A stretch of 64,000 nucleotides of DNA from positions 62,001-126,000 of the forward strand of contig JAKIUF010000006.1 in assembly GCA_021647705.1 (NCBI GenBank). The letters are read 5' to 3'. Shown here piece after piece: positions 39,435 to 64,000 of this stretch (position 1 is the first letter of the stretch; every line of letters begins with the position of its first letter). Both the position numbers and the translations under genes were made by a program. The notes beneath the pieces were generated by a model. It saw nothing but the letters and a program-made list of their open reading frames with translations, did not search any database and was not told the DNA's origin. This DNA is from Gammaproteobacteria bacterium (GTDB taxonomy: Bacteria > Pseudomonadota > Gammaproteobacteria > SZUA-152).

Positions 39435-39514
39435 ATAACACGGCACTTGTCAGCACCACTACAACATAACCTGCCAATACACTGGAACGCTCATCCAAGA
39501 GTTTAAATCTCTGG

Positions 39515-39539
39515 ATTCCGGCTAAAAACATGCCGGAAT
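39515..39539. repeat. Short REP-like hairpin
   Basis: ATTCCGGC and GCCGGAAT around TAAAAACAT form a perfect 8-bp stem, with the flanking CTGG and GACG typical of REP-like sequences in gammaproteobacteria. It is one of three unrelated palindromes in the jetA-jetB gap. Confidence 0.75.
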
Positions 39540-39563
39540 GACGGTATTTTCAGATCGTAGACC

Positions 39564-39637
39564 GTAGGGTGGGCACGTCGTTTGTGCCCACGCGGTGATT
39601 CCACATCCGCGTGGGCAAAAAAACATGCCCACCCTAC
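39564..39637. repeat. 74-bp palindromic element with GTAGGGTGGGCA termini
   Basis: Twelve-base perfect terminal inverted repeats (GTAGGGTGGGCA) enclose a second, inner palindrome (CCCACGCGG and CCGCGTGGG). The element ends one base before the jetA stop codon (39639). Its termini resemble those of the larger element at 28560-28702. Confidence 0.85.
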
Positions 39638-39638
39638 T

Positions 39639-46359: not shown

Positions 46360-46947
46360 TCACCAGTAGTTAACTAAAATCACCTTTGCCCAATCGGGTA
46401 ACGGTTGTTGTTGTATTTGCAGTTCATCATGATCAATGAATGCAATAGAAGTGAAAGGTTCAGCATGTGACGAATTATCATAAATCTGTACAACATCAAC
46501 TAATGCCAATACATCATTCACATACCGTATGGCTCCTGGCATCTGTGAAATAATTTTCTCACTTGGCACCGTATGCCCACCTTCTGCTACTCGTTGAGAA
46601 GCGCGCGCCTAGTTTAATTGATCATTTTGCAAATGAATATAAACAAAAATAATCTCATAGCCTGCTGACTTTGCAGCTGCTAAAAAATCAATTTTCGAAG
46701 GATGAGAAAAAACGGTCTCAAAACAAAAGCTAGTGCCTGTACGCAGCAAATCCAGACACAGTTTTCCAGCTAGTTTGGCCACTTTATAACTCACCACCTT
46801 CGGTTGTTCAGCGTTCAGTTCTTTTGCCAGAATATCGGCATTAACAAAAGGTAAGCCGGTTGACGCTAAAAACAGCCGATAAAAAGTGGACTTGCCTGCA
46901 CCATTCCCCCCCCCAGCCAATAACCAAAGTTGCTTATCGGCACTCAT
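46360..46947 (-). pseudogene. Zeta-toxin-like P-loop kinase interrupted by an in-frame amber codon
   Basis: The first part has Walker A AGGGNGAGKSTFY, then NADILAKELNAEQP and FCFETVFSHPSKIDFL, all as in zeta/PezT-type kinases. A TAG at 46609-46611 stops translation after LQNDQLN. The same frame continues without any shift through ARASQRVAEGGHTVPSEKI to a natural end (AKVILVNYW), giving about 195 residues in total. In intact relatives the stop position is usually a Leu, so a single TTG to TAG change would explain it. It overlaps the antitoxin-like fragment by ATGA. The product is probably inactive unless the amber codon is read through. Confidence 0.82.
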
Positions 46948-49167: not shown

Positions 49168-49599
49168 TCAAGGCGGCTGAATTAATGCAACCCGCCCCGT
49201 CATCAGTTCATCTCCTCTGGCACATGCCCGGATATTATATATTGCCCCGTTGCTGTCATTAAAAATACATTCGGCCTGAATGTGTAACTCGGGCACACTG
49301 ATGTCGATAAACCGGGAAAACACATGCAATTTCTTTATCGCCCCAAGATAGGCAGGGCGGGCTGCACCGAGGCCACTTTGTTGTAAGGCTGCGTGAACGG
49401 CTGCCGCCTGCGCCCCATATTCCACCAACACCACCGTATCCATCACTCCATCTTCAATCAGCGGATTATCCATTCGGCGATGACTGGCGGTAACGGCGTT
49501 CAGACGGTGTTCATCCCAGTCTGTTATCTGATCGAGCAAACACATGGCTTCGCCATGAGGGATAAGTTGAACGATTTTATGGCGCGGGATTGCAGTCAT
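49168..49599 (-). CDS. apeP: 3-hydroxyacyl-ACP dehydratase, ApeP-like
   Basis: A single-hotdog protein of 143 residues, last gene of the minus arm. LIPHGEAMCLLDQI carries the catalytic-type His, and VVLVEYGAQAAAVHAAL forms the hotdog helix with its acidic residue. In the characterised aryl-polyene system ApeP works together with ApeI to dehydrate the 3-hydroxyacyl intermediates of the growing polyene. It starts 65 bp after the CLF gene. Confidence 0.82.
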   Translation of the reverse strand: MTAIPRHKIVQLIPHGEAMCLLDQITDWDEHRLNAVTASHRRMDNPLIEDGVMDTVVLVEYGAQAAAVHAALQQSGLGAARPAYLGAIKKLHVFSRFIDISVPELHIQAECIFNDSNGAIYNIRACARGDELMTGRVALIQPP

Positions 49600-49663
49600 G
49601 GAATAGTGGTAATGACAATAAAAAAATCAGTTGGCTGAAAATTATTTTATCTATTTTTGCTGC

Positions 49664-50461
49664 TTAATAGGGTGTTAGATTGACCATCAACATTCCATCA
49701 CTAGGCAAAGGAAGGTGTAGCTGGCAGTCTTTTTTCCGGGCCAGCGCCTCCAGCAATGGCAAACTACGTGCTGCAGGATTGCCAAGGCGTACGGCGTCCA
49801 AAGCGATATTTTCCATTGGTGTTTCATTTTTTTCTTCCGCACCGAGACCGACAGTCAAACAAGCGAGGCTGGTATCGTCAGGTGCTGCGGTTAACACCAG
49901 AGCCACAGCAAATGGATCCTGGATAAAGCACTTGGCAAACAAAGGCGGTGGAGGCGGCGTGTCATAAACTGCCAATAAGGCTGATACTCCGTCCAATGCC
50001 ACCTGAGTGGCGGCTTCCAGTAGTCCTGCGCTGAAGCTACCGTCATAACCAGCCAGACTGGTAGAAGGTGCGCGAGAGCCAGTGGCGATACTCCAGTAGC
50101 CGGCAGCAGCATTGTGGACCGAGTTGTGAAACTGGGTGGGTGATACGGCCCGCTCGGGCTGCCGCAGCATCCGGCATATCTGATCGACAATGGGAGTATC
50201 TCCTCCGGAGGAGGCAAAAATACCCGCCAAAGTGCTGGGGTCAAGATTGCTGCTGTCGATGGCATCTTCACAGGCACGAAAAGCCAACCGCACCACTTCG
50301 GTGGCCCGACGACGTTCATTCGGCGGCAACAGTTTTGGCTTGTAACGATCAAGCGGTCGGGAAAGGCAGGGCTGTTCACCCCTCAATACCTGGCGTCCTT
50401 TAACCCAGTTTTCCAGACCCGGTGCTGCCAAGCCAACGGCATTCACATAAACTTTGATCAT
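49664..50461 (-). CDS. apeC: Ketosynthase-like chain-length factor, ApeC-like
   Basis: About 265 residues with a ketoacyl-synthase N-terminal fold (VYVNAVGLAAPGLENW, ASSGGDTP, QFHNSVHNAAAGYWSIAT) but no active-site Cys, so it is a partner rather than a catalyst. In aryl-polyene systems ApeC pairs with the ketosynthase ApeO. The ATG at 50461 overlaps the ApeO stop as ATGA, which fits tight translational coupling of a heterodimer. Confidence 0.85.
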   Translation of the reverse strand: MIKVYVNAVGLAAPGLENWVKGRQVLRGEQPCLSRPLDRYKPKLLPPNERRRATEVVRLAFRACEDAIDSSNLDPSTLAGIFASSGGDTPIVDQICRMLRQPERAVSPTQFHNSVHNAAAGYWSIATGSRAPSTSLAGYDGSFSAGLLEAATQVALDGVSALLAVYDTPPPPPLFAKCFIQDPFAVALVLTAAPDDTSLACLTVGLGAEEKNETPMENIALDAVRLGNPAARSLPLLEALARKKDCQLHLPLPSDGMLMVNLTPY

Positions 50462-51645
50462 GCTGAACACCCCACCACCAGACTACAATTGCTGCCACCG
50501 AAACCGAAAGAATTGTTCAGCACAGCCCGCAGTGGTTGATATCTGTTCTCCAGCAATACCTCAATTTTCAGATTCGGATCCAGTGTCTCGCTATTTAATG
50601 TCCGGGGCATAAAACCATGCTCCATGCATAACAAGGCCAGCGATGTTTCAACAATGCCAGCAGCTCCCAAAGTATGCCCTGTCCAACCCTTGGTGGAACT
50701 ACACGGGGTTTTGCGGCCAAACAAGCTGGCCACGGCTCTGGATTCGGCAATGTCGTTGGCCTGGGTGCCAGTGCCATGAAGGTTGATATAATCAATGTCC
50801 CTGACTGCCAGCCCGGCGCTGGCCAAAGCGGCTTTCATTGCCGCCAATGCACCTTCACCCTGCGGGTGTGGCGACGACATATGGTAAGCATCGCTACTTT
50901 CTCCATACCCCAGCAAGGCGACTCCCCCACGATTCTCTCCAGGCTGGAGCAAAGCAAACCCGCCCGCCTCACCAATAGAGATTCCGCTACGGGCCATATC
51001 AAAGGGGCGGCATTTTTCTGTAGCCACAAGCTGTAAGGCATTGAAGCCATACAAAGTGGTCAAACAGAGGGAGTCAACACCACCCACCACGGCGGCATCA
51101 CAAAGCCCGCTCTGTATGGCTCGACTGGCAGAGGCAAACACTTTGGCACTGGAGGAACAGGCAGTAGAAACTGTGACGCTGAACCCTTCGATACCCAGGT
51201 AATGACGCACAAAATCAGTGACAGCATAGGTATTGTGAGTAGTGGATTCATGATACCACTGCGGCAACGGCTCTTTTTCCGGGTCGATACTGAGATAGGC
51301 CTGCTCGGTTTGATGGATACCCGAAGTACTGGTGCCCATAAAAAGACCGATGCGTTTGGCACCGTAGCGACTCGTGGCATCACGCACGACATCGATAAAC
51401 CCGTCCTGTTCCAACGCCAGTTGAGCTAGGCGGTTGTTGCGACAGTCGTAGCTCGCCCATTGACCTTCCAGACGGAAATCATCAAGGGACGCTACTTTGC
51501 CCACCCAGGCATCTAGGTCATCAATTTGAAAAAAATCACAAGCTGTCAGCCCGGAATGCCCCTCCCGTAACGGTTGCCAATGAGCGTCACGACCGGCACC
51601 CAGTGCCGAGGTCAGCGTATAATCAGTGATCTGTAGTGGTTTCAT
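50458..51645 (-). CDS. apeO: Beta-ketoacyl-ACP synthase, ApeO-like
   Basis: A FabB/FabF-type condensing enzyme of about 395 residues. The nucleophile is in VSTACSSSAKVF, the two His in NLHGTGTQAND and KGWTGHTLGAAG, and the end is FGFGGSNCSLV. The frame opens at 51717, but the ATG at 51645 (MKPLQITDYTL) is chosen because the fold starts there; it still overlaps the end of the acyltransferase gene by 23 bp. It should elongate the aryl starter with malonyl-ACP. Confidence 0.92.
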   Translation of the reverse strand: MKPLQITDYTLTSALGAGRDAHWQPLREGHSGLTACDFFQIDDLDAWVGKVASLDDFRLEGQWASYDCRNNRLAQLALEQDGFIDVVRDATSRYGAKRIGLFMGTSTSGIHQTEQAYLSIDPEKEPLPQWYHESTTHNTYAVTDFVRHYLGIEGFSVTVSTACSSSAKVFASASRAIQSGLCDAAVVGGVDSLCLTTLYGFNALQLVATEKCRPFDMARSGISIGEAGGFALLQPGENRGGVALLGYGESSDAYHMSSPHPQGEGALAAMKAALASAGLAVRDIDYINLHGTGTQANDIAESRAVASLFGRKTPCSSTKGWTGHTLGAAGIVETSLALLCMEHGFMPRTLNSETLDPNLKIEVLLENRYQPLRAVLNNSFGFGGSNCSLVVGCSA

Positions 51646-52540
51646 CGAGCCAAAAATCATAAAAATTGAACCAGTTATAGGGAGCCTCACCAATGTGATG
51701 CTCCAAGCGGCGGACATATTCTCCCATAGCCCGAGAAATTTCTGTGTCGCGTTGGTGACGGGGAGCAGAAAACTGTTCCGTCAACAGTTCAAAATTGAGC
51801 TGGTAACGATTCCCCCCTTGATAGAGTCCGAAACAAAGGATGACCGGCGCTTTGAGAATCAACCCCAGCAACCATGGCCCAACAGGGAAATTTGCTTGCC
51901 CTCCAAGAAACTCACAGCGGATCATCCGCTCATCATTCCCGGCCCTGTCAGCCATAATGCCAATCATCTCACCCTTTTTGATTGCCTGATCCAGAGTCAA
52001 GGCCAACGCCGGTGCAGATTGCGCAGGATCGATAATCGCTGCAGCAAGTTCCGGGTCCAAAGCATCAATCAGTTCGGCGGCAAGCGGGCTGTGCTGGCGA
52101 TCAATCAATACACGAATCGGTAAACGCTGTTCTTTTGTCGCTAAAACCCGCATCACATCAAAACTGCCAAGGTGAGAAACCAGGAGAATACAACCCTGCT
52201 TCTGCGTCACATAACGCTGGAATAATTCGGCACCATTGACCTGAATTTGGTATTTATCATGTTGCCCGGAGAGAAAAAACAAACGATCCACAGAAACAAC
52301 CGCAAAGGTATAAAAGTGTTTCCACAAATCCAGCCATCCTGGTTTGCGCCCCAGTGCCCGGGTCAAATACTGGCGTGAAGCCCGGCGAGCCGTGGCGGCG
52401 GTCAACAAGAAATAAAATGCTACTGGATAAAGTAACAGCATCATAAATCGTCGGCCAAGATGCAGAGCCGCCCATACCAGCAATGTCAACATAGTGCGGT
52501 TGCTTCGTTCTTTCTGTTCATGCCACCGGGGGGCCGTCAT
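51623..52540 (-). CDS. LpxL-like lysophospholipid acyltransferase
   Basis: An acyltransferase of the LpxL/HtrB (LPLAT) superfamily with an N-terminal membrane anchor (LLYPVAFYFLLTA) and the conserved LVSHLGSFDVMRVLA, in which His-Xaa3-Asp-like spacing is modified (HLGSFD), and MADRAGNDER. In aryl-polyene clusters it is thought to move the polyene onto a lipid. The ATG at 52540 overlaps the upstream stop as ATGA. In many clusters this domain is fused to a glycosyltransferase; here the two are separate genes, the other being at 58764. Confidence 0.85.
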   Translation of the reverse strand: MTAPRWHEQKERSNRTMLTLLVWAALHLGRRFMMLLLYPVAFYFLLTAATARRASRQYLTRALGRKPGWLDLWKHFYTFAVVSVDRLFFLSGQHDKYQIQVNGAELFQRYVTQKQGCILLVSHLGSFDVMRVLATKEQRLPIRVLIDRQHSPLAAELIDALDPELAAAIIDPAQSAPALALTLDQAIKKGEMIGIMADRAGNDERMIRCEFLGGQANFPVGPWLLGLILKAPVILCFGLYQGGNRYQLNFELLTEQFSAPRHQRDTEISRAMGEYVRRLEHHIGEAPYNWFNFYDFWLDETTTDH

Positions 52541-52869
52541 GGTTGCTGCTCCCGAGGTGCATGTCCAGCCAGTTCCAGTACACCTTTGCAAACGAGGTTA
52601 GGGGGACAATGACAAGCAACATCCAGACGCTGCAACGCCGGATCACTTTTCAATTCCAGGCGACACTGATCACCAGGGTGGAGGCTTTTGAGAAATTTCA
52701 TCGATTTGATAGTGATGATGGCGTGAGTGCAATACTGACGGTGAACCCGGGCAAAAATCCATTGCATTAACAACGCTCCGGGAACAATGGGATCTCCGGG
52801 GAAATGAGCGGGGAAACACGGGTGCTGTTGTGGCACGGTAAAATAGAGTGTGATCACATCGGGCTTCAT
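52537..52869 (-). CDS. FabZ/ApeI-type hotdog dehydratase
   Basis: A 110-residue single-hotdog protein with CFPAHFPGDPIVPGALLMQW, the dehydratase active-site loop, and FLKSLHPGDQ. It follows the AMP-ligase gene, the place of apeI in known clusters, so it is a candidate for the ApeI subunit that pairs with ApeP. A second protein of the same kind is at 58371, and which of the two is the true ApeI cannot be settled here. Confidence 0.8.
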   Translation of the reverse strand: MKPDVITLYFTVPQQHPCFPAHFPGDPIVPGALLMQWIFARVHRQYCTHAIITIKSMKFLKSLHPGDQCRLELKSDPALQRLDVACHCPPNLVCKGVLELAGHAPREQQP

Positions 52870-52875
52870 TTCAGT

Positions 52876-54231
52876 TTATTTCAACAACGCTTGCAATAAC
52901 GAGATAGAAAGCTTGCCCGTGTCATTACGCGGCAAAGCCGCAACCTTTTTAATCGGCCGGGGCAAAAACACCAAATCAACCCTTTGCGCCAGCGCCTCCC
53001 GGAGAGCATGCAGCGAAAGCTGGGAGACAACCAGTGCTACCGGGCGTCGAGGCCATTTATTGTCTCTTCCCTCTCCCTCATCAGCCATAAAAATGACACC
53101 GTCTTCCACTCCTTCAATCGCTAAAAATTTGAGCGTAAGATCCGCGAGGGAAGCTCTTTTGCCACCAACATTAATCATGTCCACCGAACGCCCCAGAAGA
53201 TGAAACCGGTGTTGATCAATAAGTTCCAAACGATCTTCCACTCGTGCGGCATCAGCAAGATGTGGACCCTGAACATGTACCAAATCTTCGGTTGATGTTT
53301 TGTTCATCATCAGAGTCATGCCGTCCAACAAGGTCCAGTTATCATCACTGATGGTTCGCCGGGTCGCCATGCTGCCCGCTTCCGTACAACCGTATATTTC
53401 TTCCACCGGTGCCTGAAACAGGTTTTCAGCCTCCGCTGCCTTGAGTTTGTCCAGTGGTGCTGTTGCCGATATCACTTTACTCACCACCGGCATTTTTGTA
53501 CGAGTGGCGACCATCGCACGCAAATGCACCGGCGTTGTCACCAACAACCGCGAATCCGACAAAGAAGCAAGTGTAAATGCAATATCATCAGCATAGAACG
53601 GGTGACGGGAATCCATAACACAGCCGCCATGCAAGGCCATCATGAGCGTCATTTCCAGTCCATACATATGTTGGGAAGGTACGGTAGCAACAATGGTCGG
53701 CCGTTCCTCCGGTGCCACGAACCGGGCTGCCAACATTCTGGTGGTACCGACCAGGGTTCGCCACAGCTTTCGGTTGGGCGACGGCTTGCCGGTCGTACCG
53801 GAAGTAAAAGCGATTGCAGCCAACTGGTTGCCTTTCAGCCATGGCAATTCCGGCTCCTGCCCGTTATTCAACAACGCAATGTTCACTGTTGCCGCACGAA
53901 GATCCAGTGTCACGATCTCCGCCAGTTCCTCATCGTCGTCGATCACCGCACAACAATCCGGATAATCCGCGACAACGTCGGCTATGGTCTGTGATTGACG
54001 GCCGGATGGTAACAGGTTAACGCTTCCCTTCACCAGAGCGGCACAAAATACCAACGCAAAATGATAGCGGTCCCGGCACAAATTGATCAGGTAAGGGGTA
54101 TTCGGCAACTGCCGGGACAAGGCCACGACCCGGGCAATAAAATGCTGCTGACTGACCTGTTGGCCACCGCTGAACATGATGGGTGCCGCTGGCCGAAATA
54201 CATGAATCAAAGGAATGTCGTCGTTCTGCAT
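52876..54231 (-). CDS. apeH: AMP-dependent acyl-ACP ligase, ApeH-like
   Basis: A 451-residue member of the ANL superfamily. The phosphate loop is AIAFTSGTTGKPSP and YGCTEAGS is the A5-like motif; HLLGRSVDMINVGGKRA and the C-terminal NDTGKLS (with its catalytic Lys) complete it, so unlike the ligase at 12184 it is intact. In aryl-polyene synthesis this enzyme is expected to load the aromatic starter (4- or 3-hydroxybenzoate-derived) onto an ACP. It lies 6 bp from the hotdog gene. Confidence 0.88.
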   Translation of the reverse strand: MQNDDIPLIHVFRPAAPIMFSGGQQVSQQHFIARVVALSRQLPNTPYLINLCRDRYHFALVFCAALVKGSVNLLPSGRQSQTIADVVADYPDCCAVIDDDEELAEIVTLDLRAATVNIALLNNGQEPELPWLKGNQLAAIAFTSGTTGKPSPNRKLWRTLVGTTRMLAARFVAPEERPTIVATVPSQHMYGLEMTLMMALHGGCVMDSRHPFYADDIAFTLASLSDSRLLVTTPVHLRAMVATRTKMPVVSKVISATAPLDKLKAAEAENLFQAPVEEIYGCTEAGSMATRRTISDDNWTLLDGMTLMMNKTSTEDLVHVQGPHLADAARVEDRLELIDQHRFHLLGRSVDMINVGGKRASLADLTLKFLAIEGVEDGVIFMADEGEGRDNKWPRRPVALVVSQLSLHALREALAQRVDLVFLPRPIKKVAALPRNDTGKLSISLLQALLK

Positions 54232-54234
54232 AAG

Positions 54235-54843
54235 TCAGCGTTGTCGAATATCAGCACTAACCACTATCCTGAGATAGTCTACAAACCCGGGCTGATCGTA
54301 ATGATGAAAGCGCCACTTACGATAGACATATTCAATCACAAATAATAAAGCAGCCAATATATAATTGATAAAATTGGTGAACAGAGACCACAACGTGATC
54401 GAGCCCAACCACGGCAACAAAGCAGACCACAAAGCCATGGCCGCAAAAAAAATCGCCCACATCAACGTCACACTTCGGGTATAACGGCACATATATGCGG
54501 GCAAGGAACCATGCACCTGTTCAGCAATAGCAGTCACCAGTGGTTTTCCTCCCGGTAACAGACCACGAAAAAAAACACCCCATAACAGCAAAGGAATCAC
54601 TACCGGAGGCACATATAACAGATAGAGGGTAACCCCCTGGTTATTAATCGCGAAAAGCAGCACTAGAATCAGTAAAAATAAACCCTGAGTGAAACGATTG
54701 CCTTGCCGTAAACTTGGCAACAATAGCCCCAGAGCCAGCACCAGCAAGGCCAAAATCTGCACCATCGGCAGATCCAACCATACCGCTAAATGAACCAACA
54801 GAGGGTAACTCAGGGTCAGTGCCACCGGCATAGCCGAACTCAC
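54235..54843 (-). CDS. apeG: Aryl-polyene cluster membrane protein (ApeG/COG4648 type)
   Basis: A 202-residue integral membrane protein with about five hydrophobic segments (LLVHLAVWL, ILALLVLALGLLL, FLLILVLLFAI, LYVPPVVIPLLLWGVFF, LMWAIFFAAMALWSALL) and a basic C-terminus YVYRKWRFHHYDQPGFVDYL. The gene position between ACP and ligase and the C-terminal segment fit COG4648 proteins found in such clusters. Its biochemical role is not established. The start may be the GTG at 54843 or the ATG at 54831. Confidence 0.78.
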   Translation of the reverse strand: MSSAMPVALTLSYPLLVHLAVWLDLPMVQILALLVLALGLLLPSLRQGNRFTQGLFLLILVLLFAINNQGVTLYLLYVPPVVIPLLLWGVFFRGLLPGGKPLVTAIAEQVHGSLPAYMCRYTRSVTLMWAIFFAAMALWSALLPWLGSITLWSLFTNFINYILAALLFVIEYVYRKWRFHHYDQPGFVDYLRIVVSADIRQR

Positions 54844-54854
54844 AGACTCAGGAA

Positions 54855-55124
54855 TCAGCTATGAATGTGTGTAGTCAATGCACGCAGACTGGAAAATATC
54901 TGCTGGTTATTCTCATCATCCGCTTTTAACTGAACACCGTATTGACGAAAGACCGCAAGAGAAATTTCCAGTGCATCGATAGAATCAAGACCGAGGCTAT
55001 CAGGTGCATCGAACCCAAACAAAGGGGCCTCTGGGGAAATATCATCAGCACTGATATCCTCCAGATCCAGCGTGTTAACCAGCATTTCTGCCAGCTCTTT
55101 TTCTTGTTGTGATTGCACGCCCAT
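54855..55124 (-). CDS. apeF: Acyl carrier protein, ApeF-like
   Basis: An 89-residue ACP with the phosphopantetheine site LGLDSIDALEIS. The start is the ATG at 55124, with AGGTGG about 10 bases upstream; a GTG at 55136 is the longer alternative. It is one of two ACPs in the cluster; the other is at 58111. Confidence 0.9.
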   Translation of the reverse strand: MGVQSQQEKELAEMLVNTLDLEDISADDISPEAPLFGFDAPDSLGLDSIDALEISLAVFRQYGVQLKADDENNQQIFSSLRALTTHIHS

Positions 55125-55209
55125 GATAACTACCACCTGAAAACTGTTTTTTTGTACATGTCACCTAATATCCTGCGAGTACTCACACTCACCCAGCACG
55201 ACCCAAGTG

Positions 55210-55974
55210 TCAGCCATTCGTTTTAATTTCACTGCCACTGTATTCACTGAACATTCCCATCACCACATGACGCCGGGGCAGCTGTAAACCAACCTCTTCC
55301 ATTGTCGCCAGGATAATTGACGGGGAAACACATTGCTCAATGGTATCCCAATAATAACGCATCAGTTCCTGAGCCTCACTGCTACGACGAAACAAACGGG
55401 TCAAGGTAGGCACCACACCTTTCATGTAAAACTTGAGCCCCCCCTTGAAGAAAGCATTCTCCGGCCGGGTAATTTCCAGCAACAGGATTTTCCCTCCCGG
55501 TTTCAATACCCGACGATACTCGGAAAACAAAGCATGCAAATCCGCTACATGACGAAGGGCAAAGCCCATGGTCACACGATCAAAAGTATCATCAGGGAAC
55601 GGCAACCTCTCCCCCAGACCCTGGGCAATATTGGACACTCCCCGGGTTTTCGCTTCGCCAAGCATACCGGCGCTGGGATCTAAAGCAACCACCAAACCTT
55701 TATCCTGAACGATGCCCTGGGCCAGATGGGCCACTACGCCAGTACCAGAACCAACATCCAGCACCCACATACCCGGTTCCAGACCGGATCGTTCCAAAGC
55801 CTGACGTCGATACAATTCCCCGGAGCCGAAGCTCATAATGCTGTTAATCCAGTCGTAATGCGCCGCCGACGAATCAAACATTCCGTCGACTCGTCCACGG
55901 CGTTCACTTTCGTCCCCATAATACTCCGGAAGGACCGGATGAGGAGCCACTTGTTCTTTGTTTTGGGTTTTCAT
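55210..55974 (-). CDS. apeB: UbiE-like SAM-dependent methyltransferase (cluster methylase)
   Basis: A 254-residue class I methyltransferase, first gene of the minus arm. SAM motif I is VLDVGSGTGVVAH, motif II VVALDPSAGML, and LRHVADLHALF and VLKPGGKILLLEITRP follow. In aryl-polyene clusters the methylase acts on the ring or its hydroxyl. The gene starts opposite the chorismatase, so both arms share one regulatory region. Confidence 0.85.
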   Translation of the reverse strand: MKTQNKEQVAPHPVLPEYYGDESERRGRVDGMFDSSAAHYDWINSIMSFGSGELYRRQALERSGLEPGMWVLDVGSGTGVVAHLAQGIVQDKGLVVALDPSAGMLGEAKTRGVSNIAQGLGERLPFPDDTFDRVTMGFALRHVADLHALFSEYRRVLKPGGKILLLEITRPENAFFKGGLKFYMKGVVPTLTRLFRRSSEAQELMRYYWDTIEQCVSPSIILATMEEVGLQLPRRHVVMGMFSEYSGSEIKTNG

Positions 55975-56141
55975 GACCGAATTTCCACCACTTGACTACC
56001 AACAGCAGGACACTTTACTGTCTGGGAGTATATTTGTATAGGCGCTATACTCTTGTTCCGCAAAACAGCAATCTGTACGGACAACATTCTAACAATTACC
56101 TGTTTATAATAAAACCAACCAAACAAATTTCAGGGATTTTC
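55975..56141. promoter_or_regulatory. Divergent regulatory region between the two arms of the pigment cluster
   Basis: About 167 bp separates the methyltransferase start (55974) from the preferred chorismatase start (GTG at 56142). It is AT-rich at its right end and is the only place from which both arms can be started. Individual promoter boxes could not be assigned with confidence. Confidence 0.5.
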
Positions 56142-57152
56142 GTGGTGCAGCCAAACCAATCGCTCCAAATATCACCCATAATATCTTGTCGTTATTCAAG
56201 CCAGACTCCAGACGCACTTCTGAAAAGTGATGACGTACTGACAGTCATCAGTTTCGGCCAAGGCTGTGCGCCCACAAAAAAATCTCGCCATTTCAATACC
56301 GGTTTGCCTGTCCTCGGCAAGCCCCTCTGCGAGGTCTGGCACAGTCAGACTACAGTGGAACACGGTATCGAGGACCATTGTTACTGGTCAAGCAATGAGG
56401 AGCTGATGTGTCTCGGTCTATGGGTCAACGAACGTCATTATTCTGACCTCAAAACGGCAGTTTTCGCATCCTATACCACTTTGCTACAAAAACTTCGGGA
56501 TCGAAACTACCCTCATCTGCTCCGGGCCTGGAACTATCTTCCCCGGATTAATCACGGTGATAACGATAACGAACGGTACAAACAGTTTTGTCTCGGTCGC
56601 CACGAGGCATTCAGCCACTGTCAGCAACATCATTATCCGGCTGCCACTGCCATCGGACATGGCAGCGGCGATATCGTGATTTACCTGATGGCATCGCGCC
56701 AAACAGTTCCTCAACATTTCGAAAACCCTGATCAGTTAAGCGCTTTTTGCTACCCCAGAGAATACGGCCCCAAAAGTCCTTCTTTTGCCCGGGCCTCGGT
56801 GTTACAAAATCAAAATGGAAAACAACTCTACCTGTCAGGGACAGCCAGTATTCATGGCCACCAGTCCTTGCATCCGAATAACTTTAACGGCCAGATGGAT
56901 GTGACTTGCGGAAATATCAACACACTGCTGCAACACGTTGCCAGCCAACTTCGAGTGGAAACAACACCCACCCTAGAATTGATAAAAGTTTATGTCCGCA
57001 ACCGCCAGGATCTGAACAAGGCTGAAGCGGCCATTGAACAACATTTTGGCCCGGAAGTACCCGCACTGTTTCTTCAGGGTGATATTTGTCGTCAGGAGCT
57101 GTTAGTCGAAATTGACGGCATGTGCCAATTCGATCACGGCACCGGGCAATGA
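56142..57152 (+). CDS. Chorismatase (Hyg5/XanB2-type), source of hydroxybenzoate starter
   Basis: Chorismatases split chorismate to pyruvate plus an aromatic or dienoic acid; XanB2 supplies 3- and 4-hydroxybenzoate for xanthomonadin. Family motifs: RAWNYLPRINHGD, FCLGRHEAF, PAATAIGHGSGD, YGPKSPSFARA, LYLSGTASIHGH and the C-terminal CRQELLVEIDG. In that last motif Cys and Glu are seven apart, the spacing I recall for the hydroxybenzoate-forming Hyg5 active site. The frame opens at 55992, but the GTG at 56142 is preferred: CAGGGA lies just upstream and homology begins soon after. Its end overlaps the next gene by ATGA. Confidence 0.88.
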   Translation: MVQPNQSLQISPIISCRYSSQTPDALLKSDDVLTVISFGQGCAPTKKSRHFNTGLPVLGKPLCEVWHSQTTVEHGIEDHCYWSSNEELMCLGLWVNERHYSDLKTAVFASYTTLLQKLRDRNYPHLLRAWNYLPRINHGDNDNERYKQFCLGRHEAFSHCQQHHYPAATAIGHGSGDIVIYLMASRQTVPQHFENPDQLSAFCYPREYGPKSPSFARASVLQNQNGKQLYLSGTASIHGHQSLHPNNFNGQMDVTCGNINTLLQHVASQLRVETTPTLELIKVYVRNRQDLNKAEAAIEQHFGPEVPALFLQGDICRQELLVEIDGMCQFDHGTGQ

Positions 57153-57955
57153 AAGATATCAGTGATCATAGCGACAGAACGCTGCTCAACACCATCAACT
57201 ACATCTGGCGGTTATTGGTTACTGGTTTCAGTTTCATGCTTTTCGGCATTGGCGGTGCAATATTGTCCATCGTGCTATATACAATCTCTCACCTGATTCC
57301 CATGAGTAACGGCCGAAAGCTGTCTTTTATCCGCAGCACAATTTCACGAACGCTCGGCATTTACCTCCTCTTTCTCCGTCTCTGTGGCTTGCTCAGTTAT
57401 GAGATTCATGGCCGCGAGCACCTCAGACCCAATGGCCAATTAATCATCGCCAACCATCCTTCCCTGCTGGACGTCGCATTTGTGATCTCTCTCATCAGAC
57501 GGACAGATTGTGTGATCAAATCAAGTCTTCAGCGTACGCCCCTCACCCGAGGCCCCGTCAACACAGCCAAATATATCAGTAACGATTCAAAACAATTAAT
57601 CCAGAATTGCGTGGATTCACTACAACAAGGAAATTCCCTGGTCATATTTCCCGAGGGAACCCGTACCCGGCCAGGGGAAGCCTTAAAATTCCAGCGCGGT
57701 GTCGCCAATGTGGCCCTGATGGCGGAAAAAAATATCACCCCCATCACCATACGCTGTGAACCGGCAGCCTTGCTCAAACATCAAAAGTGGTACCAGATTC
57801 CCAAACTGCCGCCTCACTACACAATTCATGTTCTGCCCGACATCGCCATCGAACCTTATCTGGCCATGGAGGCGATGCAAAGCCAAAAAGCACGACGACT
57901 CAACCGGGACCTGATCGATTTTTTTACCGTCCGCATTAACAACCCAGGGCACTGA
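57149..57955 (+). CDS. apeD: 1-acylglycerol-3-phosphate acyltransferase-like protein (ApeD-like)
   Basis: A PlsC-type acyltransferase of about 268 residues. After one hydrophobic anchor (LLVTGFSFMLFGIGGAIL) it has IIANHPSLLDVAF (a variant HX4D box with Asn-His) and FPEGTRTRPGE. It starts at the ATG overlapping the chorismatase stop. In aryl-polyene clusters this enzyme type is thought to help attach the polyene to a glycerolipid. Confidence 0.85.
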   Translation: MKDISDHSDRTLLNTINYIWRLLVTGFSFMLFGIGGAILSIVLYTISHLIPMSNGRKLSFIRSTISRTLGIYLLFLRLCGLLSYEIHGREHLRPNGQLIIANHPSLLDVAFVISLIRRTDCVIKSSLQRTPLTRGPVNTAKYISNDSKQLIQNCVDSLQQGNSLVIFPEGTRTRPGEALKFQRGVANVALMAEKNITPITIRCEPAALLKHQKWYQIPKLPPHYTIHVLPDIAIEPYLAMEAMQSQKARRLNRDLIDFFTVRINNPGH

Positions 57956-58110
57956 AACACAACGATGAACCGATAAATTTCCTGCCACGATGCAATGAAA
58001 ACCCGTGTATTATTTGCTAGAATACCCGACCAGCACGCTGCCAAGACTGTTTTGATAATGTACTGGCCACTGTGAACAACAGTTAACTATAATAAAAAAC
58101 CGGTTTTGTT

Positions 58111-58374
58111 ATGCATACGAAAGAATCAATATACGAATATTTGAAGGGCGTCATGTCGGAGCTGTTTGAAGTCGAGGTCGATACGATTCGTCCTGATTCC
58201 AGGCTCTACGAAGAACTGGATATTGACAGTATCGATGCCGTGGACATGATCATAAAACTGAAAGACCTGACAGGGAAAAAGTTGCGGCCCGAAGACTTCA
58301 AAAATGTGCGCACGGTGCAAGATGTGGTGGATGCCGTCTATGTGCTGATCAACAATGATACCCCCATGCAGTGA
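58111..58374 (+). CDS. apeE: Acyl carrier protein, ApeE-like
   Basis: An 87-residue ACP with ELDIDSIDAVDMI as phosphopantetheine site. A gap of 155 bp before it is the longest in the plus arm; TATAAT about 20 bp upstream may mark an internal promoter. It ends overlapping the next gene as GTGA. Confidence 0.9.
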   Translation: MHTKESIYEYLKGVMSELFEVEVDTIRPDSRLYEELDIDSIDAVDMIIKLKDLTGKKLRPEDFKNVRTVQDVVDAVYVLINNDTPMQ

Positions 58375-58757
58375 TCTCCACGCCGCCTGACAGCCCACAT
58401 CCCGAGAACAAAACTGACCCTGTCATATTACAACAACATATTGATGCTGTTGAAACCCGGTTCTTACTCTATATCCCCAATGATCTGGTGTATTTCGAAG
58501 ATCATTTTCCCAGCCACCCTATGCTTCCAGGAGTGGTTCAGATCCAATGGGTAACAGACTTGGCGAAACAACTACCGCTACCCGATACATTTCTGGAAAA
58601 TTTTTCGACAATAACAAAACTGAAATTCATGCGTCTGATTGCACCAGAAGTCCAACTCACCCTGCAACTGATAATATCGCCATCAGGCAAATCACTGAGC
58701 TTTCGCTATTTCGATGATGCGGGCGATTACTCTTCCGGCCATCTGGGCTTCAGGTAG
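58371..58757 (+). CDS. Second FabZ/ApeI-type hotdog dehydratase
   Basis: A 128-residue single-hotdog protein with VYFEDHFPSHPMLPGVVQIQ, the dehydratase loop with its His, and TKLKFMRLIAP. It begins at a GTG overlapping the stop of the ACP gene. It resembles ApeI proteins, as does the protein at 52537; the cluster thus has three hotdog dehydratase-like genes in all, besides the thioesterase. Confidence 0.8.
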   Translation: MISTPPDSPHPENKTDPVILQQHIDAVETRFLLYIPNDLVYFEDHFPSHPMLPGVVQIQWVTDLAKQLPLPDTFLENFSTITKLKFMRLIAPEVQLTLQLIISPSGKSLSFRYFDDAGDYSSGHLGFR

Positions 58758-58763
58758 TCCACC

Positions 58764-59522
58764 ATGTTCAACCCTTGCATCATCATTCCGACATACAACC
58801 ATCACCGCTATATTCACACAGTGATTGATGGGCTAGGGCAGGATATTCCCTGCCTGATTATCGACGACGGCAGCATTTCACCCTGCCGTGAAATTCTTCA
58901 GGATCTCGCCCGTGAACGGCCCTGGGTAGAACTTGTTCGATTGCAACAGAATCAGGGGAAAGGAATCGCCGTCACCACCGGACTGAAGCATGCCTACCAA
59001 CAGGGGTTCAGTCACGCCCTGCAAATCGATGCCGATGGCCAACACGATACCAATGATCTCCCTCGCTTTCTTTCCCTGGCAAAAAAACACCCCCTGGCCA
59101 TCATCGCAGGGGTGAGGCGCTATGAAGAAATGCCGCCCAAACGACGTTATGGCCGGATGATTACCGATTTCTGGGTATGGATAAATACCCTTTCCTTCAC
59201 CATTAAAGACTCCATGTGTGGTTACCGTCTTTACCCATTAGCAGAAACCATGCCTCTGATATCGGATACCGCAGTGGGCCAGCGGATGGATTTTGATACC
59301 GATATTCTGGTACGGCTCTACTGGCGTGGAATTGCGGTCGAACAACTGGAAACCCGAATACACTATCACCATGATGGCGTCTCTCATTTTGACATGCTGC
59401 GGGACAATCTAAGAATTTCGAAAATGCACACCCGCCTTTTCTTCGGCATGCTGGTCAGGCTGCCTGTCCTCATGGCACGCACCTGGAAACATCAAGACAA
59501 ACATGCTCAACACAAAAACTGA
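58764..59522 (+). CDS. Family 2 glycosyltransferase
   Basis: A GT-A fold glycosyltransferase of 252 residues: CIIIPTYNHHRYI, IIDDGS, QNQGKGIAVTTGL, then QIDADGQHD with the metal-binding DxD and MCGYRLYPL. It is the glycosyltransferase half of what is often a glycosyltransferase-acyltransferase fusion (ApeJ) in these clusters. It probably decorates the lipid head or the aryl group. Confidence 0.88.
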   Translation: MFNPCIIIPTYNHHRYIHTVIDGLGQDIPCLIIDDGSISPCREILQDLARERPWVELVRLQQNQGKGIAVTTGLKHAYQQGFSHALQIDADGQHDTNDLPRFLSLAKKHPLAIIAGVRRYEEMPPKRRYGRMITDFWVWINTLSFTIKDSMCGYRLYPLAETMPLISDTAVGQRMDFDTDILVRLYWRGIAVEQLETRIHYHHDGVSHFDMLRDNLRISKMHTRLFFGMLVRLPVLMARTWKHQDKHAQHKN

Positions 59523-59943
59523 AATCACAATCCCCTTCCATGACGTCGACTCCATGAAAGTCGTCTGGCATGGCTGCTATGTAAAATATTTCGAAATCGC
59601 CCGATGTCAATTGCTTGAAATTTTCGATTACAGTTACCAGAAAATGTTTGAATCCGGCTACGCTTGGCCGGTGGTCGATATGCGAATCAAATACGTTAAA
59701 CCGCTGCATTTTGACCAAAAAATCGTGGTGGAAACTCAATTAATAGAATGGGAATACCGGCTAAAAATCAAATATCGAATTTGTGATGCCGATAGCGGAG
59801 TAACCCTGACCAAGGGTTATACCATCCAAGTGGCTGTGGATATGGAGACTCAGGAAATGTGCCTGGAATCGCCTCTGGTTTTCACAACAAAGCTTTTCAA
59901 AACAGAGGCATTCAAAACAAAGTCAGGCAAAACCGAAACATGA
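59503..59943 (+). CDS. apeK: Acyl-CoA/ACP thioesterase, ApeK-like (4HBT hotdog)
   Basis: A YbgC-type hotdog thioesterase. DVDSMKVVWHGCYVKYFE includes the catalytic Asp and the conserved His/Tyr surroundings, followed by KYVKPLHFDQKIVVET. It overlaps the glycosyltransferase by 20 bp. In the known system ApeK hydrolyses or edits ACP-bound intermediates. The 3' part (about 25 residues of Lys/Thr-rich repeats) extends beyond the normal fold. Confidence 0.85.
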   Translation: MLNTKTEITIPFHDVDSMKVVWHGCYVKYFEIARCQLLEIFDYSYQKMFESGYAWPVVDMRIKYVKPLHFDQKIVVETQLIEWEYRLKIKYRICDADSGVTLTKGYTIQVAVDMETQEMCLESPLVFTTKLFKTEAFKTKSGKTET

Positions 59944-60644
59944 ATCGCCTGATATTAGCTCTTATCATCACTCTGATGACACTCCCTCAACCGGTTTATG
60001 CCGGTGACGCCACCGAGACAAGCAACCTGCTATCTCAACAAATGCGTCAGCACCAAGTCGTAAAAGGCCACTTTGAACAATCGCGCACGTTGACCGGTAT
60101 TCCCCGCCCCATTCATTCCAGCGGCCGCTTTATCTATTGGCGAAACCACGGCCTGTACTGGAAAACCGAAAAACCCATCTCTCAAGCCTCGACGTTTACC
60201 CCCGATGCCATCATTCACTGGCAGTCCGGCACTGACTTACAACAAGCCAAACGTCAGGTAAACAAAAGCACATCACCGGTTCAAAAACAGATCAGCCGCA
60301 TTTTACTGGCCGTTTTCGGCGGCGACATTCAATCATTGGAAAAACTGTTCAACACCCACTGGCATTCCGGCTCGACACCCGACGAAAAACAATGGACCGT
60401 AGACCTGACGCCTTCAGTGACCGCCATCAAACAAGTCGTTGCGAAAATCACCCTCAGCGGTGGAGATTACGTTAACGCTCTCAATCTCGATGCCAGCAAC
60501 GGTGACACCACCCGGATTCACTTTTCCAACATCCGTGCATTCGCCTATCCCGCAGCAGAGGATTGCCAGTATTTCAATCAGGATTCCGCATCATGTCCTG
60601 GCGACAAAACCGACACTCTTTCATCCAGCCGAAGAGAACCATGA
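59940..60644 (+). CDS. apeL: LolA-like periplasmic carrier, ApeL-like
   Basis: The ATG at 59940 overlaps the thioesterase stop and begins a signal peptide (LILALIITLMTLPQPVYA). The mature part has VKGHFEQSRTLTGI and SSGRFIYWRNHGLYWKTEKP, as in outer-membrane lipoprotein carrier (LolA) proteins. Such proteins in aryl-polyene clusters are expected to carry the lipid-linked pigment across the periplasm. Length, about 234 residues, is normal. Confidence 0.85.
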   Translation: MNRLILALIITLMTLPQPVYAGDATETSNLLSQQMRQHQVVKGHFEQSRTLTGIPRPIHSSGRFIYWRNHGLYWKTEKPISQASTFTPDAIIHWQSGTDLQQAKRQVNKSTSPVQKQISRILLAVFGGDIQSLEKLFNTHWHSGSTPDEKQWTVDLTPSVTAIKQVVAKITLSGGDYVNALNLDASNGDTTRIHFSNIRAFAYPAAEDCQYFNQDSASCPGDKTDTLSSSRREP

Positions 60645-63076
60645 AACCTGACAAGCGATCAGGAATGCAGTCAGAAATGCAGGACAGCCACACATTTACC
60701 TCGATTTACAGAGGGTTGGCAGCGGCATTTGTGATCCTTTGCCTGACCAGTATCTTTTTACTGAATAACACATTTAAAACCGGACTGGTCATTGATACTG
60801 ATCTCCGCGCCCTGTTGCCAAAAACTGACAACAATGCTCTCTCCCGCTACGCCGAATCCCGGTTACTCAATCGACTGGGGAACACGGTTATCCTGTTGAT
60901 CGGAGCAACGACACCGGAAGCAGCAATAAAAGCGGCCGACTTCGGCAGTACCTGGCTGCATAACCACACAACGTTGCGCGTGAATGCGGATTCCTCCCCG
61001 GGGCTCGACCCGGAAAACCTGATCCTGCAAATGAAAGATCACCGCTTCCATTTGCTCACACCAAAACAACGACAACTGCTCGAAAACGATGCCACAGAGG
61101 ATTTGCTCAACATGGGCTGGGCTTCAGTTCTGGGGCCCCAAAGCTGGGCCCGGATCACCTCCATACAAGAAGACCCCCTTGCATTGTTTGACGATTTTGT
61201 CGCATGGGCCAGTCAGACCGGCAGCACGTCCACCGTCACCCGGCATGGGGAAAATATACTGTTCAGCACACCTCAAAGACCCGGGTGGTTTTTCTCCCCT
61301 CTTTATATAAACACCGGCGAAGAAACATTTCAGCTCGATGCCCAAGCCAATACTGTCGCCACCCTGGCCCAGCTACAGACAGCGCTGAAGCAACATTTAC
61401 CCGAAATACAAACGTTAAAATCCGGTGTCATTTTTCATGCCGCTGAAGCCGCCAAACGCGCCCGGGGAGAGGTCACATTAATCGGTCTGGGGTCACTGCT
61501 CGGCATCATTGCATTATTCATTGCCGCCTTCCGCTCACTGACCCCGCTGGTCATCAGTTTAGCCTCTGTTTTTTTCGGCTGCGTCATTGCCTTTTCCATC
61601 GTTCACCACCTCTACTCCGGGCTGCACATCATCACTCTGGTTTTTGGTGCTGCCCTGATTGGTGTCTCCGTCGATTACTCGCTGCATTATTTCACCCGAC
61701 TGTTCTCCACCCGCACCACCGGTCATCGCTTTACCTGTTTGCGATCCATTTTCCCGGCCATCAGCCTCGGGTTGATCACCAGCATCATTGGCTACGGCAG
61801 TTTAAGCCAGGCACCATTGACCAGCCTCAACCAGATCGCCCTCTTTTCTGTCACCGGCCTCATCAGTGCTTGGCTGTTCGTGGTTGTTATCTACCCCTGG
61901 GCCAGAATACGTGACCCCAAACCGATGCCGGCTTACCTGACCCGCTGGGCACTGTTCCCCCTGAATTGCTGGCAAAACCTGAAACGGCGACATCTGCCCC
62001 CGGCCACCTTCCTCGCAGGTCTGGCGATTCTGAGTGCCCTGGGTGCCTGGCTGACCATCACCACTAGCGATGATGTCCGTATCCTTCACTCACCCTCAAC
62101 GGTCTTGCTGGAAGAAGAAAAAAAACTGAAAACAATCATCAACAGCTATGCGGGCAATCAGTTTTTCATCGTCACCGGTTTAAGCGGACAACAAGTATTG
62201 CAAAATGAAGAAGCGTTCCGCCCACAACTTGAAAAACTGGTTGAGTCCGGAGCCATCACCGGCTACCAGTCCATCACTCGCTTCCTCCCATCCATCGCTC
62301 GCCAGCAAGAAGATTACCGCCTGCAAAAACACACACTCTACGATAATAGTGATAGTGGCGAACCTGGCCCGATACCCCGCTTCATGAAAAAACTGGGGTT
62401 TGATGCCGCAGCGACAGAGCAACTGTCACACCGCTTTGCCGCCCGTAAAAATGACTACCTGACCCCGAAAAACTGGCCGGGATTACAGGCATCAGGACTT
62501 GACCTGCTCTGGCTTGGTCAGATCGATAAACAATATGCGACCCTGATCCTGTTACAAGGGATCAAAGATACCGCCGCCCTGACAACAGCGGCAACCGACG
62601 TCGATGACATTGTATTCATCGACAAGGTAAACGAGTTAAGCCACATTCTGGAACAGCAACGACACTCGGCAACCGCCATGCTCGCCCTGGCGTATGGCGC
62701 AATCGTCATCCTGTTGCTCCTGCGTTATCGGCGAATCGATGCAATGCTCCTGGCGCTGGTTCCTCTGGTCTCAACGTTACTCACCATCACCCTGCTCTCC
62801 GGTATCGGCATGTCCATCAGCCTGTTTCATCTGTTTGCCATGTTCCTGATACTCGGGCTGGGTATGGATTACAGCATCTTCATTTATGAATCATCAGCGG
62901 CAGAAACCGCCAGCCACACCGCAATACTGTTCTCTGCTATCACCAGCTGTCTGTCATTCGGCCTGCTGGCACTGAGCAGCACACCCATGGTGCAATTTTT
63001 CGGTGCCACGGTATTAATCGGCAGCATTTTTAATCTGGCCCTCGCCCCCGCTGTTGCGCGCCTGTCGCCAAAATAG
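60641..63076 (+). CDS. apeM: RND/MMPL-family exporter, ApeM-like
   Basis: An inner-membrane exporter of about 811 residues, starting at the ATG overlapping the previous stop. It has the RND/MMPL layout: one N-terminal helix (FVILCLTSIFLL), a large periplasmic loop, five helices including GAALIGVSVDYSLHYFTRL, a second loop and five more helices with LGLGMDYSIFIYES. The two YS-type DY motifs lie at equivalent places. It should flip or export the aryl-polyene lipid; no DUF3261 lipoprotein gene was seen with it. Confidence 0.9.
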   Translation: MKPDKRSGMQSEMQDSHTFTSIYRGLAAAFVILCLTSIFLLNNTFKTGLVIDTDLRALLPKTDNNALSRYAESRLLNRLGNTVILLIGATTPEAAIKAADFGSTWLHNHTTLRVNADSSPGLDPENLILQMKDHRFHLLTPKQRQLLENDATEDLLNMGWASVLGPQSWARITSIQEDPLALFDDFVAWASQTGSTSTVTRHGENILFSTPQRPGWFFSPLYINTGEETFQLDAQANTVATLAQLQTALKQHLPEIQTLKSGVIFHAAEAAKRARGEVTLIGLGSLLGIIALFIAAFRSLTPLVISLASVFFGCVIAFSIVHHLYSGLHIITLVFGAALIGVSVDYSLHYFTRLFSTRTTGHRFTCLRSIFPAISLGLITSIIGYGSLSQAPLTSLNQIALFSVTGLISAWLFVVVIYPWARIRDPKPMPAYLTRWALFPLNCWQNLKRRHLPPATFLAGLAILSALGAWLTITTSDDVRILHSPSTVLLEEEKKLKTIINSYAGNQFFIVTGLSGQQVLQNEEAFRPQLEKLVESGAITGYQSITRFLPSIARQQEDYRLQKHTLYDNSDSGEPGPIPRFMKKLGFDAAATEQLSHRFAARKNDYLTPKNWPGLQASGLDLLWLGQIDKQYATLILLQGIKDTAALTTAATDVDDIVFIDKVNELSHILEQQRHSATAMLALAYGAIVILLLLRYRRIDAMLLALVPLVSTLLTITLLSGIGMSISLFHLFAMFLILGLGMDYSIFIYESSAAETASHTAILFSAITSCLSFGLLALSSTPMVQFFGATVLIGSIFNLALAPAVARLSPK

Positions 63077-63090
63077 CATTGCAAAAAGAA

Positions 63091-63200
63091 ATAACCTGAA
63101 CATTTTGCTGGTCTATCCTTCCGTCTTCAGCGTTGAGGAAGAAGGTTACATACAACGATGTATGCACCTATTTCTGCGCCTTGAATACGAAACGATATCC
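63091..63200. repeat. Short copy of the composite dispersed repeat
   Basis: The left block (63091-63127) and right block (63181-63200) are those that flank the long copy at 30306-30679, but here only about 54 bases separate them instead of about 319, and the CAGAG palindrome is absent. The copy starts 14 bp after the exporter gene and ends near the broken end of the integrase pseudogene. Confidence 0.75.
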
Positions 63201-63228
63201 GGTGCAATCTGTATGAATTATTCAATTT

Positions 63229-63619
63229 TCATTCCTTAGTTGGAAGCCGGAGCCTTCCTCTGGCAAGGGTTGTGTGACTCCGAAGCAAGGTATGAGCAAA
63301 AAATCGCCAAAGTACTCAATCCACTTTATCGAGACATGGCGCATTGATCATAATAAACAGTTTCTGTATAGCATCGATAGCTTGAATGAATTGCCCGTTT
63401 TTTAGCCTGATATTCCTGCCCTAATTTTCCAGGAACCGGGGACTGGGCAAGGTGTATTAATGGTAACTTTTGATCAGGGTAAGCTTGGGTATAACGCTCT
63501 GTCCGTTTTACGTACCAACGACAAATATCTCCCTTAACAGCTTGTTTTTGAAGGAATTCAATATATTGACCCTGGAGTCTGGAGGCAGTATTGTCTGTTT
63601 TTGATTTGTTATTATTCAA
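63229..63619 (-). pseudogene. Decayed integron-type tyrosine recombinase (integrase N-terminal part)
   Basis: From the ATG at 63619 the frame reads through QYIEFLQKQAVKGDICRW and RTERYTQAYPDQKLP, which resembles the SAM-like N-terminal domain of integron integrases. Near 63385 the match moves to another frame (NGQFIQAIDAIQKLFIMINA), showing a frameshift, then meets a TGA where Trp is expected in the family (after LDKVD) and goes on in that frame as VLWRFFAHTLLRSHTTLAR. The catalytic core with Arg/Tyr is missing. It ends beside the repeat copy at 63091-63200. Confidence 0.72.
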
Positions 63620-63868
63620 ATGTTTGCGTCATTGCATGTATGTGAATTTCATTTCATAACATGCTGTTTTTTATATAAAACAGGGTGTTCGTAATTATGG
63701 TGCTATACAGATTCTGCATATTGGACTGTTAGCGCTTAAAGGCAAGTGGCGCATAATATAAGATATTTGGTTCTAATTTTTGTATTAGTCCAAGCTGTGT
63801 ACCCCAATTTTAGCTAGGGGAATAATAAAGTTATAGAAATTTAGTCCATCAAGAAAGAGAGTTTAAAA

Positions 63869-64000
63869 ATGCCTTATATAAAGCTCGGAAATAGTTCGTA
63901 TTGTGATTTTTTACGGTTATTTGTTTTAGCCCTTTGTATTTTTATATACGGATGTGAAAATCATAGAATTACACTTGGTCCCGGTATTTCGTCTGCCTAT
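63869..64000 (+). CDS. Lipoprotein, N-terminal part only
   Basis: An ATG at 63869 with AAGAGAG about 10 bases upstream opens a frame that runs off the right edge. It reads MPYIKLGNSSYCDFL, then a hydrophobic stretch ending IYGC, a lipoprotein signal with lipidated Cys29. The mature start is ENHRITLGPG. Function is unknown. The 250 bp before it are AT-rich and show no gene. Confidence 0.65.
   Translation, partial: MPYIKLGNSSYCDFLRLFVLALCIFIYGCENHRITLGPGISSAY

Follow-up and report, generated by a model that had tools for sequence, protein, structure and literature searches.

Gene clusters for aryl-polyene (APE) and xanthomonadin-type pigments have been described in Escherichia coli, Xanthomonas, Lysobacter and Azoarcus. 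A chorismatase is already a published component of such clusters, described for Xanthomonas and Lysobacter (PMC3691225) and, under 'xanthomonadin', for Azoarcus (PMC3949708); in Lysobacter, deletion of the chorismatase homolog is reported to leave about 90% less pigment, and deletion of the ketoreductase (KR) to abolish it (PMC3691225). Here we analyze a cluster of this kind in a 64-kb window, the whole stretch of DNA under study (C43:62001-126000), on the 147,561-bp contig C43 of a gammaproteobacterial genome of 4.44 Mb in 82 contigs. Pfam and NCBIfam profiles, together with blastp against the E. coli ape genes, identify an aryl-polyene-type gene set at window positions 49168-63076. An earlier note had read this stretch as an aryl-polyene cluster that carries a chorismatase of its own, like those of xanthomonadin producers, and lacks the KR (ApeQ) and the second ketosynthase (KS; ApeR). 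Family matches for the core genes bear out the type of cluster, and a PF21168 match at 55992-57152 bears out the chorismatase. The two absent genes lie on the same contig a short distance past the window; the gene set is complete, and the locus is a member of the known aryl-polyene/xanthomonadin kind of pigment cluster.

Inside the 64-kb window, a profile scan of the proteins finds neither KR nor ApeR, and to that extent the reported absence stands. For the cluster and the genome it does not: a ketosynthase search across the genome gave a match at C43:130809-131543, just beyond the window, in a run of four genes (C43:128761-132047) on the same contig and strand as the cluster's exporter, in this order:

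C43:128761-129519, plus strand, ApeN, DUF3261 protein (PF11659 3.2e-22)
C43:129533-130009, plus strand, ApeP, dehydratase (PF22817 1.7e-13, over cut-off)
C43:130029-130802, plus strand, ApeQ, short-chain ketoreductase (TIGR01831 408.0 bits, cut-off 338.85)
C43:130803-132047, plus strand, ApeR, ketosynthase (NF006587 705, cut-off 470)

ApeQ starts 4,029 bases past the window end, and position 63076, taken as the right edge of the cluster, is the start of a 3.8-kb insert and not the cluster end. The absence of both genes (C43:130029-132047) is therefore a window artefact, since the window stops at C43:126000 and the genes lie downstream of the insert. TIGR01831 (3-ketoacyl-ACP reductase FabG2; ACP, acyl carrier protein) is a name also carried by the E. 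coli aryl-polyene KR, and identity to the cluster of a faecal E. coli strain is 65% for ApeQ and 60% for ApeR. The YxxxK (YSAAK) and glycine-rich TGxxxGIG motifs of ApeQ are intact. Its best matches among solved structures are 6nrp, 7caw, 7czc and 4iiu (~340-352 bits; next 203), among which 7CAW is Acinetobacter baumannii ApeQ, 6NRP is identical and 4IIU is from E. coli CFT073, as given in PMC8041823; those of ApeR are 7f27 (535 bits) and 4ewg (528 bits; next 256), and 4EWG is named an ApeR homolog in PMC8358021.

The earlier note had concluded that reduction must come from FabG or a distant locus. A cluster truly devoid of KR and ApeR, with the housekeeping FabG doing the reducing, would agree with the lack of either gene in the window and with the presence on contig C11, beside a KS, of a homolog of FabG that has 43% identity to the KR and is its next-best homolog in the genome. 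We regard this as very improbable, since a dedicated ApeQ-ApeR pair, in the same gene run and in the order of E. coli and of the same-family genome G017, follows 4 kb past the window; the C11 homolog is not needed as the KR. The earlier note had named an apeQ/apeR pair elsewhere in the genome as the finding that would refute its reading; the genome search found such a pair on C43, with a predicted function in pigment formation, and by that criterion the claimed absence is refuted. This removes a false lead, as no ketoreductase-less aryl-polyene pathway is left to explain, and it illustrates that clusters cut by a window or broken by an insert can appear incomplete.

For comparison with other loci, a genome collection was scanned with an alignment of eight chorismatases, which yielded at least 570 confirmed stretches; the best 80 were kept for all counts over 80 loci given here, with flanks of up to 10 kb and some short contigs. 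In the present cluster the genes form two divergent halves. The minus-strand half comprises:

49168..49599, minus strand, FabZ-like dehydratase (DHa); NCBIfam FabZ 5.9e-6, below cut-off; no Pfam match at 1e-3; tblastn match in 46/80 chorismatase loci
49664..50470, minus strand, ApeC-like chain-length factor (CLF), PF13723 2.1e-27, adjoining ApeO
50458..51717, minus strand, ApeO-like elongating ketosynthase of the xanthomonadin-type lineage, NF006618 528 bits, cut-off 407
51623..52591, minus strand, LpxL-like acyltransferase, PF03279 4.3e-13; 32% to residues 264-549, the C-terminal half, of E. coli ApeJ
52537..52869, minus strand, FabA-like dehydratase (DHb), PF07977 2.6e-5
52876..54231, minus strand, xanthomonadin-type AMP-ligase, putative loader of the aryl acid onto ACP, PF00501 2.1e-17
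54235..54843, minus strand, ApeG-like membrane protein, 33% over 105 aa to E. coli ApeG; no Pfam match
54855..55136, minus strand, ACP1, ApeE-like, PF00550 5.7e-5; 46% to ApeE; match in 66/80 loci
55210..55974, minus strand, UbiE-like methyltransferase, PF01209 3e-36; no blastp match to E. coli ApeB at 1e-3

The chorismatase stands at the point of divergence, followed by the plus-strand half, which continues beyond the window into ApeN, ApeP, ApeQ and ApeR:

55992..57152, plus strand, XanB2-like chorismatase at the junction of the halves, PF21168 3.5e-34, 117.9 bits, cut-off 27
57122..57955, plus strand, ApeD-like acyltransferase that opens the APE-type half, PF01553 5.4e-20; 35% to ApeD
58111..58374, plus strand, ACP2, ApeF-like, PF00550 5.2e-11; 50% to ApeF
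58371..58757, plus strand, ApeI-like dehydratase, PF22818 9.5e-12, over cut-off
58764..59522, plus strand, ApeJ-like glycosyltransferase domain, PF00535 1.6e-21; 50% to ApeJ 5-249
59503..59943, plus strand, ApeK-like thioesterase, PF13279 3.9e-13; 52% to ApeK
59859..60644, plus strand, ApeL-like LolA, PF03548 5.5e-6; 27% to ApeL
60563..63076, plus strand, ApeM-like MMPL exporter, last cluster gene in the window, PF03176 8.9e-6; 27% to ApeM

The KS forms a KS-CLF pair with ApeC and carries the TACSS active-site motif with the active-site Cys, and the export set of LolA (PF03548), MMPL (PF03176) and DUF3261 (PF11659) proteins is complete. The AMP-ligase is 40% identical to that of a Xanthomonas euroxanthea locus (L090), as against 24% to E. 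coli ApeH. Genes in the order listed recur in the same divergent layout in five of the 80 loci (L033, L034, L051, L055 and L103, some without single genes) and in G017, the protein identities of which to the present cluster are 63-89%; L032 has the plus half only, its contig ending upstream. The layout is common to several gammaproteobacteria, including Cellvibrio, Stenotrophobium and Sinimarinibacterium. Of the 80 loci, 62 contain one or more of the APE core genes ApeO, ApeC, ligase, MMPL and LolA, and 50 have a KR match in the flanks; in four of these (L052, L070, L074 and L076) the match is a weak one of ~31% identity and is probably another reductase. In Lysobacteraceae-type loci the genes form a single run, with the KR beside DHa.

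A KR tree of 58 rows places the present KR together with E. coli ApeQ in a clade of 12 rows (support 97) that includes the KRs of all divergent loci; the 38 rows of xanthomonadin-type KRs make up another clade (95). In a KS tree of 22 rows the elongating KS instead joins the xanthomonadin-type KSs (fork 93), and E. coli ApeO falls outside them on a long branch. By these groupings the cluster is classed as a divergent mosaic of a xanthomonadin-type minus half and an APE-type plus half. The minus half lacks the KR normally found beside DHa, and the APE-type half supplies one, so that the KR missed by the earlier note is really missing in this narrow sense. Our literature search, conducted mostly by title, found no title describing the mosaic layout; we do not claim that it is unpublished.

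It might be argued that the halves represent two neighbouring but independent pathways, one xanthomonadin-type and one APE-type, with different products, since each half has ACP, dehydratase and acyltransferase functions of its own. However, two ACPs and two dehydratases are normal in the single E. coli cluster as described in PMC8253772. Neither half is complete, the minus half lacking a KR, thioesterase, LolA and exporter and the plus half lacking ApeO, ApeC and ligase, and the layout is kept in G017, L033, L034, L051 and L055. These points make two independent pathways improbable. A more specific form of the mosaic reading, that the xanthomonadin-type half lost its own KR and now relies on the ApeQ of the head-to-head APE-type half, in a chimeric assembly line whose two ACPs and four dehydratases would yield a (possibly halogenated) 3-hydroxyaryl polyene, we advance tentatively, as a proposal whose prospects are close to even but on the doubtful side. 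The mosaic layout poses the modest question of whether an APE ketoreductase is compatible with a xanthomonadin-type KS-CLF.

The run of plus-strand genes is interrupted by a single segment:

L009:1078 to ~4930 (first 0.9 kb, window 63077..64000), no strand assigned, insert of ~3.8 kb between ApeM and ApeN

It contains an IS200-like (Y1) transposase (PF01797 2.2e-15), a DUF4410 protein and small open reading frames (ORFs), and the same genome holds partial copies of it, of 1.19 kb (87%) on C57 and of 0.39 kb (81%) on C15. In G017 the DUF3261 gene follows ~40 bp after the exporter and the insert is absent, as it is in L032, L033 and L034, where the exporter-ApeN alignment gap is 80-114 bp. Because the segment is absent in these four and partially copied elsewhere, it is most simply interpreted as an insertion in the present lineage. 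Separately, L051 (16674-17804), L055 (16814-17944) and L103 (15652-16698) carry one FAD-dependent enzyme, distantly halogenase-like, directly after the exporter.

The presence of a transposase-bearing insert between ApeM and ApeN, absent from G017, L032, L033 and L034, raises the alternative that the operon has been split and that this strain has lost, or is losing, the pathway, with ApeN-P-Q-R present but untranscribed. We judge this unlikely, though it is the most credible of the rivals: ApeN-P-Q-R and all upstream genes are full-length open frames with conserved motifs, and since most insert ORFs share their strand, transcription might read through the insert or start from a promoter within it. 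The reading we hold with high confidence is that the genes make up a full type II polyketide cluster, arranged as a divergent mosaic, for an aryl-polyene pigment of the outer membrane, with its KR and ApeR beyond both insert and window. Against it, the insert may exert a polar effect on ApeN-P-Q-R and could thereby silence the cluster in the strain; the KR tree was made by a quick method that places a few long branches unsurely; and the activity of the full-length ApeQ and ApeR is a prediction.

The chorismatase offers some indication of the head group. Among solved structures it matches Hyg5/FkbO at 2.7e-46 and weaker, and it falls below the FkbO/Hyg5 subfamily cut-off (TIGR04444 223.3 vs 325). 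Its true start is probably a GTG near 56142/56145, since the homologous frame in G017 opens only close to there. The catalytic Glu (Hyg5 Glu-334) is residue 373 of the 386-aa frame, and catalytic Glu and Cys are kept in 82/82 homologs. At three diagnostic positions, located by counting in the alignment with Hyg5, the protein has Ala, Gly and Cys, a set identical in X. euroxanthea L090; the Hyg5-type residues are given as Gly, Gly and Cys (PMC7170507). The first position is Ala in 78 of the 82 homologs and the other two are invariant. The reaction of a chorismatase is, according to PMC3949708, not accurately predicted from sequence alignment alone. The same source reports that Azoarcus ArcB, the XanB2-type (CH-III) chorismatase of a pigment cluster, forms both 3-hydroxybenzoate (3-HBA) and 4-hydroxybenzoate (4-HBA), and that the Azoarcus pigment takes up fluorinated 3-HBA and not fluorinated 4-HBA (PMC3949708). 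A chorismate lyase (PF04345), found in 22 of 25 genomes searched, the present one included, lies on contig C82 as a separate source of cellular 4-HBA. On the ArcB and Lysobacter data, the nearer kinship of the ligase to the xanthomonadin type and the genome's own chorismate lyase for 4-HBA, the pigment starter is likely 3-HBA. The 4-hydroxybenzoate named in the earlier note was imprecise, as published relatives use 3-hydroxybenzoate (PMC3949708). A further role in feeding ubiquinone, as for XanB2 in Xanthomonas, is less likely because the PF04345 lyase is present.

Setting the observed gene content, order, families, key catalytic residues and KR grouping beside published relatives, from which each reaction and the product are taken, we propose the following route. 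The chorismatase would convert chorismate to a hydroxybenzoate, most likely 3-HBA, which the xanthomonadin-type AMP-ligase would load on ACP1. The ApeO-ApeC pair, aided by ApeR, would extend the chain with malonyl units, and ApeQ would reduce every keto group, the double bonds being introduced by as many as four dehydratases (DHa, DHb, ApeI and ApeP). Decoration of the head would fall to the methyltransferase and perhaps also to the halogenase close by. The thioesterase, acyltransferases, glycosyltransferase, LolA, MMPL exporter and DUF3261 protein would link the chain to a lipid and take it to the outer membrane. The predicted product is a yellow aryl-polyene pigment.

Beyond ApeR lies one further gene that may belong to the pathway:

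C43:135381-136715, minus strand, flavin-dependent halogenase-type gene, PF04820 4.7e-27, 3.3 kb beyond ApeR

The protein carries the motif WFWMIP, which we take to be the halogenase signature WxWxIP. Its distribution was followed in 57 related genomes, including the present one and 11 others of its genus, several being 73-86% complete. Close halogenase homologs (E <=1e-60) occur in five of the 57, the present genome included, and all five carry a chorismatase, itself found (E <=1e-3) in eight. Leaving out the present genome, the halogenase occurs in 4/7 chorismatase carriers vs 0/49 of the rest (~1e-4, calculated by hand and ignoring relatedness). The two genes are neighbours in G024, G035 and G051 and on different contigs in G018; G017 has the same cluster without the halogenase. 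A halogenase gene is reported in the Xanthomonas clusters and none in that of Lysobacter, as far as PMC3691225 describes them. Halogenation of the pigment is considered a possibility only, because in Azoarcus a halogenase is listed and the pigment is nevertheless non-brominated (PMC3949708).

The chorismatase was not detected in the 11 other genus members within this 57-genome search, several of them 73-86% complete, and an ApeR homolog (E <=1e-110) appears only in the present genome and G017 among the 57. This patchy distribution suggests gain by transfer or patchy loss. Beside ApeR, a B12-binding radical SAM protein (L009:9823-11334, minus strand), a possible cluster member, has a counterpart of 87% identity at the corresponding position in G017; its gene occurs in five of the 57 genomes, only three of these being chorismatase carriers. 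At the other end, a CrtI-like FAD oxidoreductase adjoins the cluster (window 47232-48815, minus strand); its membership of the cluster lacks support, as it has no tblastn match in the 80 loci or in 11 further relatives' loci.

Elsewhere in the window, positions 34052-41120 (minus strand) encode JetA (PADLOC 1.2e-188), an SbcC-Walker-B protein and a JetD_C/DUF3322 protein, likely a Wadjet type I defence operon (scanned on either side of 38563-39255). Because it adjoins the Wadjet genes, a 1466-aa protein at 41744-46144 (plus strand), with an apparent P-loop (GEAGTGKT, by eye) near its start and no Pfam match at 1e-6 or PADLOC match at 1e-5, is a candidate defence NTPase. A 112-aa zeta-toxin-like fragment (46609-46947, minus strand; PF06414 5e-7) covers only part of its profile. 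At 2598-13665 (minus strand), a type I polyketide synthase (PKS) of 3201 aa with two KS and four ACP stretches, together with an AMP-binding protein, lies in DNA of lower GC (~41-43%); no acyltransferase domain is found among its Pfam matches, and the region looks like a trans-AT PKS cluster.

The nearest known systems share parts of the present cluster or its arrangement. The E. coli APE cluster apeA-apeR, as described in PMC8253772, shares D-F-I-J-K-L-M-N-P-Q-R with the plus half in the same relative order, including the M-N-P-Q-R order, although E. coli has ApeO between N and P; here ApeO, ApeC, the ligase and ACP1 lie in a separate and less similar minus-strand half, a chorismatase is added, ApeJ is split in two genes, and a UbiE-like methyltransferase is present without an ApeB homolog. 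The xanthomonadin clusters of Xanthomonas and Lysobacter (PMC3691225) share the chorismatase (xanB2/ORF5), KS-CLF, ACP, ligase and LpxL-like acyltransferase, and those of Xanthomonas also the halogenase; their KR, of the other clade, stands beside DHa, whereas here that half has none and ApeQ takes its place. The Azoarcus BH72 arcuflavin clusters, in the account of PMC3949708, share the chorismatase ArcB, halogenase ArcA, KR ArcH, ligase ArcT, LolA and exporter, but occupy two unlinked loci and include dialkylresorcinol genes, in contrast to the one contiguous divergent cluster described here. The arrangement itself is shared by the loci of Cellvibrio mixtus J3-8 (L033), Cellvibrio UBA8526 (L034), Stenotrophobium (L051) and Sinimarinibacterium (L055), in which the chorismatase likewise separates the two halves and ApeQ/ApeR close the plus half, uninterrupted by the 3.8-kb insert of the present cluster.

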